This document shows, piece by piece, positions 19,355 through 41,256 of a DNA stretch of 64,000 nt. The translations under genes were made by a program, and so were the position numbers. Where the stretch lies: assembly GCA_039636795.1 (NCBI GenBank), contig CP143430.1:1550001-1614000 (forward strand). Direction: 5' to 3'. How positions within the stretch are numbered: the first letter of the stretch is position 1; every line of letters starts with the position of its first letter. The DNA is from Micrococcaceae bacterium Sec5.1 (GTDB lineage: Bacteria; Actinomycetota; Actinomycetes; Actinomycetales; Micrococcaceae). The notes beneath the pieces were generated by a model. It saw only the letters and a program-made list of their open reading frames with translations. It did not search any database and was not told the origin of the DNA.

Positions 19355-22300
19355 GTGACATCTTTCTTCGGCAAGCTGGGGCTGAAAAAGCGTCGAAACA
19401 AGAAACTCGTATCTGCAACTGCTGTGACTGCGGCCGGCGCCTTGCTGGTAGCGGGCGCAGTTCTCTATCCAGGGTTCAAGACGGCCGAGGTCGATTTGAA
19501 CGACGGCGGCGTGTGGGTTGTGAGCAAGACCAAGAATGCCGTAGGACGCCTGAATTATCCCTCCCGGGTTCTTGATGGGGCCGTGACACCGGCAACCACC
19601 ACGTTCGATGTCCTGCAGCATGACGGCAACGTCTTTGTGGACGATGAGTCCGGCTCCACCATCAACCAGGTCTCGGCGGCGAACCTGAAGTTGGGTGGCG
19701 ACAAGCAACTGCCCTCGTCCTCGCAAGTCAGCTACGGCTCCAGCGTCCTCTCAGTCACGGACCCCGCCCGTGGAAAGGTGTGGGCACTTTCGCCCTCCAC
19801 CGTGAACGGCTTCGATGAAGAATCCACCGAACCCGTCCTCACTGGCTCGCAGAACATGGTGTCGGCCGTCGGACAGGACAACCGCATTTACACGGCGGAC
19901 CCGGGCAAGGGCGAAATCACCATCACCACCGTGGACGCCAACGGCGAACGGACTGCCTCGGAAGTAACCAAGGTGGAGGAGCTCAAGGGCGCAGGTGATC
20001 TGCAGATTGCTGTTGTGGGCGACAAACCGGTAGTGCTGGATGCCGCGTCCGGAAATCTCTTCCTCCCCGGTGGCCGCAAGCTCCAGCTACAGGACGCCCG
20101 GGAAGCCAAGCTCCAGCAGAGCAGCGAAGACAGCGGCTATGTGGCCATCGCTACGCGCAAAGCCCTCCTGAAGCAGCCTTTGGACGGGTCCACGGCGGCA
20201 ACAGTCAACGTGGATGGAGAGGGAGTTCCCGCCGCGCCCGTCCAGGTCAGCAAATGTGTTCACGCAGCGTGGGCAGGGGCCAACAAATACGTCCGTGATT
20301 GCGACAACGACGCAGACGACAAGAAAAACGATGTCCCCAAGGCCAGCGCATCGCCCAGCTACGTCTTCCGCGTGAACCGGGACCTCGTGGTCCTCAACGA
20401 CATCAACTCCGGCAGCGTGTGGCTGGTCAACCAGAACATGCAGCTCGTGAACAACTGGGACGATGTTGTCCCGCCCAAGAACCAATCCGATGACCAGGAC
20501 CAGGAATCCGCGGACAACAACACCATCAACGTCCTCCCGGACCGTACCAAGCCGAACCGTCCGCCCGAGACCAAACCCGATGAGTTCGGCGTTCGTCCCG
20601 GCCGCACTTCCGTTCTGAGCGTCCTGGACAACGATTCAGATCCCGACGGCGATGTCCTCACCGCCTCGGTTGGCGCCAATGGCCCGAAGTCGGGTGCGCT
20701 GGAGAACATTTACGGTGGCTCAGCATTCCAGATCAAGGTCCCTCCCACCGCGAAGCCCGGCACGGAGGTCTTCGACTACAACGCAGCGGACGGCCGTGGC
20801 CTGTCGGCTGGTGGCAAGGTGACGCTGCACGTCGTCGCGCCGGAAGAGAACAAGCCCCCACTGTTCAAGCGCGCCGAGCCCACTACTATGCTCGTGGAGC
20901 AGGGCAAGTCCGTTAGCCAAAACATCCTTACCGACTGGATGGATCCCGACGGCGACGACCTCGTCCTGCTGGACGCTAAGGCTGACAATGACCAAGACCA
21001 GGTCAAGGTCCGCCGCGATGGGTTGCTCACGTACCAGGATTCCGGCGCAGCGCCCGGCAAAAAGAACGTCACCATCACCGTCTGGGACGGCCGTGCCACC
21101 ACCACGGGCCGGGTCGTCGTCAACGTGCAACCGCCCGGAGCCCTCGCACCGGTGGTTAACGCGGACCACGTCACAGCAGTGGTGGGCCAGGACCTGGTGA
21201 TCTCCCCGTTGAAGAATGACGTTGACCCCAACGGCGGCGCCTTGCGCGTGGCCCATGTTGAGGCTGCGGGCCCGGCAGAGCTGGGCCCAGTGACCGACGG
21301 CGGAACCTTCACCTTCCGCAGCAACACCCCCGGCCCTGTGTATTTGAGCTACATCGCCAGCAACGGACCACAAAGCAGCCAAGGCTTGATCCGCGTGGAC
21401 GTGGAGTCCGGCAAGGACGCCGGAGCCCCGGTTGCTGTCCATGACGTCGCCCTGTTGCCTGTGGGTGGAAGCGTGTTGGTTGATCCGTTGGCCAATGACT
21501 CCGATCCTTCCGGCGGAGTCCTCGTCCTCCAGTCGGTGACCGTGCCCGACGGGTCCTCGGCATCGGTCAGTGTGATCGACCACAGCGTCCTTCGCGTCAC
21601 TGACGTCCTCGGCGCCAAGGAACCTTTTGTGTTCAGCTACACCATGTCCAACGGCCGCGCCTCGGCCACCGGAACGGTGGGCGTCGTCCCGGTGCCCGCC
21701 CCCGCCGTCGTCGAGGCTCCCCAGCCCAAACCCGACGAAGTGAACGTACGCGTCAACGACGTCGTCACGATTCCTGTCCTGGACAACGACACACATCCGC
21801 AGGGCGAAAAGCTTTCTGTTGACCCGGTGTTGGCCCAGCCCGTTGCCGAAGAAGACGGCAAGGCATTCATTTCCGAAGACACGCTGCGCTTCATCGCGGG
21901 TCCTGCCCCCAAGACCGTGCGCGCCATTTACAACGCCGTGGATCCGCAGGGTCAGAAGAGCGCCGCTGCAGTGACCATCCACATCCTCCCATTGGAAGGC
22001 GCCCAGAATTCGCGCCCACAGCCCAAGAACCTGACGGCGCGGGTAGTGGCTGGCGGCAGCGTCCGCATTCCGGTTCCGTTGGATGGCATAGACCCCGACG
22101 GCGACTCGGTCCAGCTCACCGGCATCGACAGCACACCCAGCATGGGAACCGCGACGGCGGGTAGCAACTTCATCGATTTCGTCGGGGCAGGCGACGGCGC
22201 AGGCACCGATACGTTCCGATACAAGGTGATTGACCGCCAAGGAGCGGTCAACACGGGAACTGTCACAGTCGGGGTTGCGCCGCGCGGTGAAGACAACCAG

Positions 22301-39700: not shown

Positions 39701-41256
39701 CGATCGAACCACCACGGAAGCCGTGGCTGAACGAACTAGCCATGACCTACGATTTCTCCAAGCTGCCAAACCCCCGCACGGACGAGCGACTCCTGCTGGG
39801 CGTGGCCGACGACCCCGCACACCAAGACCAGCCCACCGTGTTCTACGAACCGGACAAGGACGGCAACATGGCCGTCTACGGTACTGGTGGTTCGGGCAAG
39901 TCAGCGGCGCTGCGCGGAATCGCCATCGCCGCTGCCGTCACGCCGCGTGGTGGGCCCGTCCACGTGTACGGCATCGACTGTGGTTCCTCAGGTTTGAAGA
40001 TGCTGGACGGACTTCCGCACGTGGGGGAGGTCATCAACGGCGACGACGTCGAGCGGGTTGGCCGCCTGCTGCGCTGGCTCAAGGAGGTCGCCGATGACCG
40101 CGCGACGCGGTTCGCCGAGGTCAGGGCTTCCACGATTGTTGAATACCGGCAACTCGCCAACCGTCCGGACGAAAAGCGTATCTTCATCCTGGTGGACGGC
40201 ATGTCCGCCTTCCGTGAAGGCTATGAGTACAGCAACCTGTCCGCACTGTGGGACATCTTCCTCCAGCTGGCAACCGATGGACGTCCCCTGGGTATCCACT
40301 TGGTAGTGAGCGGTGAACGAACCAACTCTGTTCCGGCGTCGCTCCTTGCCTCGATCCAAAAGCGTTTGGTCCTGCGTCTGAGCTCCGAAGACGACTACAT
40401 GACACTCGATGTGCCCAAGGACGTCCTCAACGCAGCCTCGCCTCCGGGCCGCGGTTTGCTCGATGGGCTGGAAGTCCAACTGGCAGTGTTGGGTGGCAAC
40501 TCGAACCTGGCGTTGCAGGCGCGCGAAGTGTCCAAACTCAGCCAGGCCATGGTGCGCCAGGGCCTGGAACAGGCACCACAAATCCAGCGCCTTCCGGAAC
40601 TTGTGGACTTGGATATCCTGCCCACCGGTGTACCGGACAATCCTGTTATTGGTGTGGACGACGAGACCTTGGGTTCGGCCACCATCGCTGCCAAGGGTTC
40701 GCTCCTGCTGGCGGGGCCTCCAGGAGCCGGACGCACAGTTGCCTTGGTCACGTTGGCGTACGCGCTGCGGCGGTCCAACCCGCGGACAGATCTTATCTAC
40801 ATCGGCTCCCGCCGCTCTGCGGTTGCCTCGCTGAACATCTGGAGCAGGTCCCTGGTGGGGCCGGACGAGGTCTCGGACGTAGTGGATGACCTCATCGACA
40901 AAGCCACGGACAACCCGGGCAGCATGGCCATCTTCATCGAGGGACTGACTGAGTTCACGGACACGTTGGCAGAATCGGGCGTGGGACGGTTGGTCACGGC
41001 TGCCATCAAGGCCGATCAGTGGGTGGTGGGTGAGTCCGAAACGTCTACCTGGTCCCAGGCGTGGTCCTTGGCCCAGCCCTTCAAATCGGGCAGGCGTGGA
41101 CTGTTGCTCAACCCTGGAGATGTGGAAGGGGACACCCTCCTGAACACCTCGTTGGGCCGGATCAGCAAGGACTTCATCCCTGGACGCGGTTACATCGTGG
41201 GACGCGGAAAGGTACGCAAGCTGCAGATCGCCATGCCGCCCGAGAACCGCAGCTAG
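36796..41256 (+). CDS. EccC/FtsK-type ATPase with N-terminal FHA domain
   Basis: This 1486-residue membrane ATPase resembles the motor of type VII secretion (EccC/EssC). It has a ubiquitin-like first 100 residues ([20 protein letters not shown]), an FHA domain (about 115-195, [16 protein letters not shown]), two helices (about 252-295) and three FtsK-like domains. Walker A of domain 1 is [10 protein letters not shown] (about 703) with Walker [11 protein letters not shown]. Domain 2 has GTGGSGKSA (about 1030) but ILVDGMSA instead of DE. Domain 3 has GPPGAGRTV (about 1305), lacking the Lys. FHA domains at the N-terminus are a feature of EssC-type proteins. It is last in the operon. No WXG100, EccB, EccD, EccE or mycosin gene is nearby. 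Confidence 0.9.

Follow-up and report, generated by a model that had tools for sequence, protein, structure and literature searches.

The window analysed here comprises 64,000 nucleotides of the Micrococcaceae bacterium Sec5.1 genome (GCA_039636795.1, contig CP143430.1, positions 1,550,001 to 1,614,000), a single contig of 5.43 Mb that is closest to Paenarthrobacter. It contains a run of ten plus-strand genes between positions 19,355 and 41,256 (Table 1), and neighbouring genes are separated by 4–54 bp or overlap by 4–14 bp, in agreement with the tight packing described in an earlier note on this DNA. Pfam supports the names given there to the first part of the run (fn3, MoxR, DUF58, transglutaminase, FHA, PP2C and kinase), and all five gene types of the PFNA cluster known from Bifidobacterium are present. 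The same operon ends, as the note had also recognised, with an EssC/EccC-type ATPase that carries its own FHA domain. We propose that the operon specifies a type VII secretion system (T7SS) to which the PFNA part is functionally tied in some way, a reading to which we assign a probability of roughly 0.72. This figure covers the type VII core together with the PFNA tie; the alternative of two systems on one transcript, weighed below, shares the core, and the two estimates therefore overlap.

Table 1. Features of the operon and its downstream flank, in window coordinates. Some gene starts were chosen by us among alternatives, and four of the Pfam scans of operon proteins used the longer, mechanically called open reading frame (ORF). 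TGM, polytopic transglutaminase-fold membrane protein.
Feature	Positions	Strand	Basis
Giant Ig/FN3 surface protein, PFNA "fn3", 2029 aa	19355..25444	+	Pfam Big_9, Cadherin_4, fn3
Other possible in-frame start of the giant Ig/FN3 gene	19262	+	ORF list
MoxR-family AAA+ ATPase, PFNA "aaa-atp"	25499..26470	+	AAA_3 PF07726, E 4e-63
DUF58 protein, two membrane helices	26475..27794	+	PF01882, E 3e-12; hydropathy
Polytopic membrane protein with transglutaminase-fold domain (TGM)	27791..30280	+	Transglut_core PF01841, E 1e-19
Zinc ribbon, RDD membrane domain and C-terminal FHA domain	30273..31658	+	PF13248, PF06271, PF00498
PP2C-type phosphatase, motifs ADGMGG and GGRDN	31655..32551	+	PP2C_2 PF13672; motif reading
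602-aa protein, FHA domain at C-terminus, no membrane helix	32538..34346	+	PF00498; hydropathy
Ser/Thr kinase, one membrane helix (residues 433-451)	34343..36046	+	Pkinase PF00069, E 7e-42; hydropathy
234-aa protein preceding the ATPase gene	36095..36799	+	Alignment of 17 rows
EssC/EccC-type type VII motor ATPase, 1486 aa	36796..41256	+	FtsK_SpoIIIE PF01580 (twice), FHA
Predicted ubiquitin-like N-terminal domain of the ATPase, residues 1-95	36796..37080	+	Predicted structure, Foldseek
FHA domain of the ATPase, residues 110-203, GR..SKRH..NSANG	37123..37404	+	PF00498, E 4e-11; Foldseek
Gap between ATPase gene and ligA	41257..41324	.	WXG100 gene in the matching gap of 12 of 80 named Micrococcaceae loci
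ligA, flanking gene outside the system, GTG start at 41325	41325..43640	+	PF01653

The product of the last gene consists of a ubiquitin-like domain, an FHA domain, a membrane region and three P-loop domains, the P-loops lying at residues 704, 1029 and 1307 (the third with Arg replacing Lys). It is an FtsK-related membrane ATPase of the EccC/EssC type, with the nearest models all matching below their cut-offs: the best NCBIfam model is EssC (TIGR03928; 536 bits under an equivalog cut-off of 778), and the EccCa and EccCb models also match. Residues 110–203, modelled as an FHA domain, have phosphothreonine-binding FHA structures as their best Foldseek matches (E 5e-10), and the 50 rows shown by that search were FHA-containing structures only. 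The model of residues 1–95 has a ubiquitin-like fold (predicted local distance difference test score 82.7, predicted template modelling score 0.74). The 50 Foldseek rows shown for this piece are largely ubiquitin-like domains at E values of about 1e-3 to 1e-2 (best 1.3e-3, none at or below 0.001); two of the rows are chains from the ESX-5 pore complex, and toluene monooxygenase subunits, which we take to have a ubiquitin-like fold, stand at the top. Pfam scans of the corresponding piece from ten proteins gave no match for eight, the window ATPase among them, and weak matches below cut-off to two ubiquitin-type families, Sde2_N_Ubi_yeast (E 0.04) and OTU1_UBXL (E 0.16), for the other two. As modelled, and at the level of fold only, the ATPase N-terminus is the ubiquitin-like component expected of a type VII system.

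This domain appears to be shared by other actinobacterial ATPases, among them one from a Bifidobacterium-like genome. We use that term for family f50 because a site for a 16S primer, presumed here to be genus-specific for Bifidobacterium, occurs in nine of 12 f50 genomes and none of 13 others; the f50 genomes lacking it are G504, G443 and G431, and G454, which belongs to the genus of G504 and has a nearly identical locus, carries it. Profile-to-profile comparison matched residues 1–95 to the N-termini of 15 other actinobacterial FHA-type ATPases at 97.9% (E 3e-13), a result that depends on a 15-row alignment (A7) with a Bifidobacterium-like TsdC as one row. A7 holds 15 of 23 N-termini with hand-chosen starts, the rest (L088, L149, L150, L152, L156, L161, L278 and L283) having been excluded by eye; the TsdC N-terminus alone, as a single sequence, reached a weak 10% probability against the same profile. 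The domain may act in the role of EsaB/TsxB. The available text of the paper on T7SSd notes, as a surprise to its authors, that T7SSd loci yielded no ubiquitin-like protein (PMC11217815). A ubiquitin-like domain fused to the ATPase would supply this component and would explain why no separate protein is present at those loci.

The operon contains no WXG100 gene, as the earlier note had observed, and none lies in the short stretch separating the ATPase gene from ligA. The genome does encode one, far from the operon (G000:C1:5342762-5343022), and the proposal that WXG100 proteins are absent was rejected: the score of this copy against PF06013 is marginal-looking (24 bits), and a dedicated "type-1" WXG100 model gives it 108 bits, the top score of the family search, with the W-x-G segment kept. 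The model was built from 13 mostly ATPase-adjacent copies plus this same copy (row 1), so that the 108 bits are partly by construction and matches in other genomes are the better test. Type-1 WXG100 proteins were found in 13 of 61 Micrococcaceae genomes, and the ATPase ortholog was found in exactly the same 13 (at least 2076 bits; next match 756), the remaining 48 having neither. Treated as a plain count, the coincidence has a probability of 1.5e-13, which is far too small because the genomes are related; contrasts within genus g2 (G297 with both, G480 with neither) and genus g196 (G563 with both, G588 with neither) are the better argument. The two genes lie 155–382 bp apart in eight of the 13 carriers and are unlinked in the window's genome, G281, G002, G573 and G597.

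Adjacency was also searched in 56 ATPase-carrying genomes, a part of the known carriers, at least 53 of which have a PF06013 match. Among the matches listed, 38 genomes have a same-strand WXG100 gene no more than 1.6 kb downstream of the ATPase gene (at 100–248 bp in 33 of these), and six more have one 3.6–4.6 kb downstream; the copies near the ATPase fall into two sequence types. By adjacency and joint occurrence, a WXG100 protein (TsxA) is encoded with the ATPase or belongs to it. Within the window's closest relatives, 80 named Micrococcaceae loci were inspected, 71 with at least 2 kb downstream of the ATPase gene and nine with less. A type-1 gene follows the ATPase in 13 (one partial, L078), with ligA next in 12 and no ligA shown in L033, and these copies are 28–66% identical to the unlinked copy of the window's genome; ligA is present without a type-1 copy in 57, as in the window. 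With 13 linked loci against 57 lacking a copy, linkage is the minority state among close relatives. Tandem WXG100 genes, partly in duplicated blocks, occur downstream of the ATPase in L225, L226 and L243, and fragmented copies near the ATPase locus in L236 (7323-7487) and L078 (15257-15445).

The type-1 model also matches inside open frames of at least 300 residues in each of the 13 genomes. In the window's genome this yields a candidate effector of 326 residues whose start resembles type 1 and whose end is hydrophobic and rich in glycine; its gene is followed by an unnamed 262-residue gene and then an RDD-like gene (RDD match below cut-off). At a Bifidobacterium-like T7SSd-type locus, a 520-residue protein encoded downstream of the ATPase matches T7SS_signal above its cut-off (E 8e-8). 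Pfam scans of candidate effectors and their neighbours mostly gave no family above cut-off. Small proteins with similar tryptophan-containing starts are encoded near WXG100 or candidate effector genes in L246 (2143-3335) and L268 (17181-17843); they belong to no Pfam family and are possibly chaperones or immunity proteins.

Comparison with known systems was used to place the operon. EccB has no match in the window's genome and is absent from 52 of the 56 ATPase genomes (four have one), compared with four and five matches in the comparison genomes G003 and G082. In the operon, Pfam recognised no EccD, EccE or mycosin (no genome-wide search for them was made). The earlier statement that the locus lacks all these components and WXG100 thus holds for the locus itself, and extends to the whole genome for EccB but not for WXG100; no complete ESX locus that might own the ATPase was seen elsewhere, judged by the lack of EccB and by the scanned neighbours of the genome's only other long EccC-like ATPase. 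The system resembles T7SSa (ESX) in its EccC-type motor, WXG100 substrate and ubiquitin fold (carried on EccD in T7SSa), and differs in lacking EccB and in the sub-cut-off matches to EccCa and EccCb. It resembles T7SSb (Ess) in that EssC is the best-scoring model for its ATPase, but the score falls short of the EssC cut-off and the motifs of its kinase are intact, unlike the EssB pseudokinase.

T7SSd, in the available text describing it, shares with the window an actinobacterial host, an EssC-type ATPase with FHA domain, a Ser/Thr kinase, a very large Ig-like envelope protein and WXG100 (PMC11217815), and the ATPase N-terminal domain is common to both as a profile. The likeness to the kinase TsdD and the WXG100 protein TsdA, one encoded in the operon and the other elsewhere in the genome, is one of protein type. 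In an ATPase tree of 63 sequences, 37 orthologs of the window's ATPase form one clade (Shimodaira–Hasegawa-like approximate likelihood ratio test support 100), and the T7SSd-type ATPases of two Bifidobacterium-like genomes lie elsewhere; the tree was made by a quick method, has long branches (L088, L155 and L161) and contains no published TsdC accession. The other alignments A1, A5 and A6 have 22 rows each. The window's giant protein has no significant BLASTP similarity to the 1798-aa protein of the Bifidobacterium-like T7SSd-type locus. It shares an N-terminal hydrophobic segment and Ig-like domains with TsdI, which has a Sec signal, but lacks the C-terminal membrane helix of that protein; no counterpart of TsdH, a small single-helix protein, is found among the ten genes. 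Filing the system as T7SSd was rejected on the tree and the TsdI comparison, and the operon goes beyond T7SSd in its MoxR, DUF58, transglutaminase-fold, PP2C, RDD/FHA and FHA proteins. T7SSe and T7SSj, as far as the same text describes them, also have a PP2C phosphatase, a kinase, a separate FHA protein and a conserved phosphothreonine motif on the ATPase, but are confined to Bacillota and have a separate ubiquitin-like protein (PMC11217815).

The absence of EccB, the separate ATPase clade, the WXG100 partner and the ubiquitin-like domain together argue for an actinobacterial type VII lineage distinct from T7SSa, T7SSb and T7SSd, a conclusion that is well supported at the level of sequence. 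We did not find this lineage described in the literature searched, a scope that leaves out most subscription journals and bioRxiv. Within that scope no publication links PFNA with type VII secretion, none joins transglutaminase, DUF58, MoxR and type VII secretion, and from 2024 on "T7SSd" occurs with type VII secretion only in PMC11217815, the main text of which, so far as available, contains no mention of MoxR, DUF58, transglutaminase, fibronectin, PFNA, Arthrobacter, Microbacterium or Cellulomonas. Some literature mentions type VII secretion, Arthrobacter and WXG100 together.

The tie between this motor and the PFNA part was assessed by gene neighbourhood. Across the class, an ATPase match at 1e-20 occurs in 274 of 394 genomes, and among the matches listed a clear gap separates those of at least 1167 bits from the following one, at 656 bits; within the order, we counted the orthologous ATPase (matches of at least 1352 bits, some partial) in 55 of 198 genomes. 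The flanks of the orthologous ATPase were read in 50 genomes with hidden Markov models (HMMs) built from the window genes and their relatives, at thresholds of our own. MoxR, DUF58 and TGM all flank the ATPase in 39 of these, and the association therefore exceeds chance. Counts for the other gene types in the same flanks are 38 for the giant protein, 36 for the kinase, 34 for the 234-residue protein, 32 both for PP2C and for the 602-residue FHA protein, and 49 for the RDD/FHA type, the last at a loose 50-bit threshold that may admit other FHA proteins. A PFNA-type transglutaminase lies within 25 kb of the ATPase in 34 of the 55 order carriers, on another contig or far away in 16, and nowhere in the rows used in five; rows were taken down to about 125 bits, and the lower rows G460, G397 and G461 were added for carrying the ATPase, which favours adjacency. 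The neighbourhood is thus not an occasional one, as it might have been.

Related ATPases show similar surroundings. In the five-member sister clade, PFNA genes adjoin three ATPases, with MoxR-DUF58-TGM (L279/L286), DUF58-TGM (L284) or MoxR-DUF58 (L278); the remaining two were read almost only upstream. MoxR-DUF58-TGM also lies near the ATPase of L148, which belongs to a different family and another ATPase group. In L275 (G106) the PFNA cluster adjoins a divergent ATPase of another clade, possibly a replaced motor.

A plausible role for the PFNA part is to control the type VII system and to serve as its envelope module. The ATPase, with its fused ubiquitin-like and phosphothreonine-type FHA domains, would be the motor. 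Its dedicated small substrate would be the WXG100 protein, whose gene follows the ATPase in many relatives and is unlinked here, and one or more longer proteins beginning like a WXG100 protein would be candidate effectors. The membrane kinase may sense the envelope through an extracytoplasmic tail and phosphorylate threonines on its partners; the motor, the RDD protein and the remaining FHA proteins could then assemble on these marks through their FHA domains and switch export on, with the PP2C phosphatase resetting the switch. By hydropathy, the giant Ig/FN3 protein starts with a hydrophobic stretch, a signal or an anchor (residues 18–36), and has no C-terminal membrane helix. Because it has this N-terminal segment of its own, it is unlikely to be a substrate of the motor, the role for which it had previously been considered and in which we reject it; exported by such a signal, it could cross the cell wall, either forming part of the path or sensing at the surface. 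Assembly of the membrane complex may be helped by MoxR, DUF58 and TGM, the last without its catalytic Cys.

A number of observations weigh against this reading, and those concerning the PFNA part lead to the most serious alternative, that of two independent systems on one transcript: a minimal type VII exporter of ATPase and WXG100, and a separate envelope-sensing and maintenance system, PFNA, as a mere frequent partner. MoxR-DUF58-TGM is missing from the ATPase flanks read in 11 of 50 genomes. Conversely, among the matches listed, a PFNA-type transglutaminase occurs without the orthologous ATPase in 47 order genomes; at E 1e-150 a different ATPase of the FHA/EssC type is present in 13 of these and none in the other 34, so that the PFNA part can act alone. 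G468, of the same family as the window's genome, keeps the other nine gene types together without the ATPase ortholog or a type-1 WXG100 gene, a state suggesting that motor and WXG100 substrate go together and that the PFNA part can persist without them. In G504, a kinase-fn3-MoxR-DUF58-TGM cluster and a cluster of WXG100, kinase, small protein, 1799-aa Ig-like protein and ATPase genes lie on one contig as separate units of opposite orientation. Set against this separation are a single tight operon with overlapping reading frames kept across several families, the sister-clade ATPases found beside two or all of MoxR, DUF58 and TGM at three of five loci, and an ATPase whose own phosphothreonine-type FHA domain is encoded next to a kinase and a phosphatase. 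We regard two independent systems as a minority view that nonetheless has to be taken seriously.

Other points against the proposed type VII system concern WXG100. No WXG100 gene was found near the ATPase in 12 of the 56 genomes (counting G204, at a contig end, and G447, with a broken match, as "none") or in 67 of the 80 named Micrococcaceae loci, nine of which hold less than 2 kb downstream; and the matching presence sets come from inside one family and are not independent events. It is improbable, in our view, that the system is decaying in this genus, its WXG100 gene lost from the locus and the leftover copy functionless. The unlinked copies of five genomes, the loci lacking WXG100 and the partial copy in L078 fit decay, but the window genome's copy keeps its W-x-G segment and has the best score of its family (as row 1 of the model), another protein that starts like WXG100 is retained, and the ATPase keeps its P-loops and is 94–99% identical to its nearest named relatives, which are called Paenarthrobacter or Arthrobacter. 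Very improbable is the earlier picture of an export or surface-assembly machine free of WXG100, with the giant protein as substrate or outer part: it agrees with the lack of a linked gene here and at most named loci, but ATPase and WXG100 were found in an identical set of 13 among 61 genomes and lie near each other in 38 of 56, and the giant protein has its own signal or anchor.

A type VII system with a PFNA module would have implications for the Bifidobacterium PFNA cluster, so far studied as a host-sensing operon. In the available text of two papers that cluster shares the kinase, fn3, MoxR, DUF58 and transglutaminase genes with the window and has no secretion ATPase described, FtsK and EccC being absent from both main texts to that extent (PMC6803598, PMC8430577). 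HMMs find the five types in the order kinase-fn3-MoxR-DUF58-TGM in the Bifidobacterium-like genomes G504 and G554 (L266/L267, L273/L274). More tentatively, and with rather less confidence than an even bet, we suggest that the PFNA cluster began as the module for phospho-control and the cell wall in a type VII lineage that is widespread but unrecognised and has a ubiquitin-like part fused to its motor, and that Bifidobacterium keeps the module beside its T7SS or after losing it. The proposal would give soil Actinobacteria a type VII system wired by phosphorylation and offer a possible place for the puzzling MoxR-DUF58-transglutaminase set. Among the 120 listed of 737 ATPase homologues, names include "FtsK/SpoIIIE domain-containing protein", "cell division protein FtsK" and "DNA segregation ATPase". 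In L268 and L270, both Bifidobacterium-like, the T7SSd-type locus shares a contig with the PFNA cluster, and an FHA protein gene follows the ATPase.

Several proteins of the PFNA part have features of their own. The window's TGM has Asp (GDDEQYA) in what we take, from the pattern G-x-C-x-x-[FY]-A, to be the catalytic Cys column of the transglutaminase fold. None of 41 aligned sequences has Cys at this position (Asp 28, Glu 9, Gln 2, Ala 1, Ser 1), and the motif reads GDSEQYA in four genomes of f50 genus g141 and one of g151. Because the catalytic Cys is absent, the role of TGM is probably structural. The PFNA transglutaminase is called an enzyme, presumably a cysteine protease, in the available text of PMC8430577. 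The kinase retains its VK, HRD and DFG motifs, and its C-terminus is presumably extracytoplasmic. The 234-aa protein matches no Pfam or NCBIfam model and belongs to a conserved family (mean column identity 65% in the 17-row alignment A4); it may combine an FHA-like N-terminus (IGREGDL..DDNPYLHR) with a conserved winged-helix-like C-terminus.

The window's genome encodes a second EccC-like ATPase, of 1391 aa and with an FHA domain, at L088 (G000:C1:3758000-3777999, 8915-13090, plus strand). It was rejected as an ESX motor, the nine neighbouring proteins scanned including no ESX gene product; its surroundings hold genes for DegT, UDP-galactopyranose mutase, glutamate dehydrogenase and three proteins without a Pfam match, and it could pair with another WXG100 gene at G000:C1:1012970. 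Most of the Micrococcaceae searched have lower-scoring ATPase matches. A gene for an adenylate/guanylate cyclase with a regulatory-domain match (17513-18700, plus strand) lies a short way upstream of the operon and itself follows a gene for a bacterial PH-domain protein. Downstream of ligA and an inositol monophosphatase gene, an AAA_21 ATPase matching the "putative AbiEii toxin" model (44529-45737, plus strand) is possibly a defence gene.

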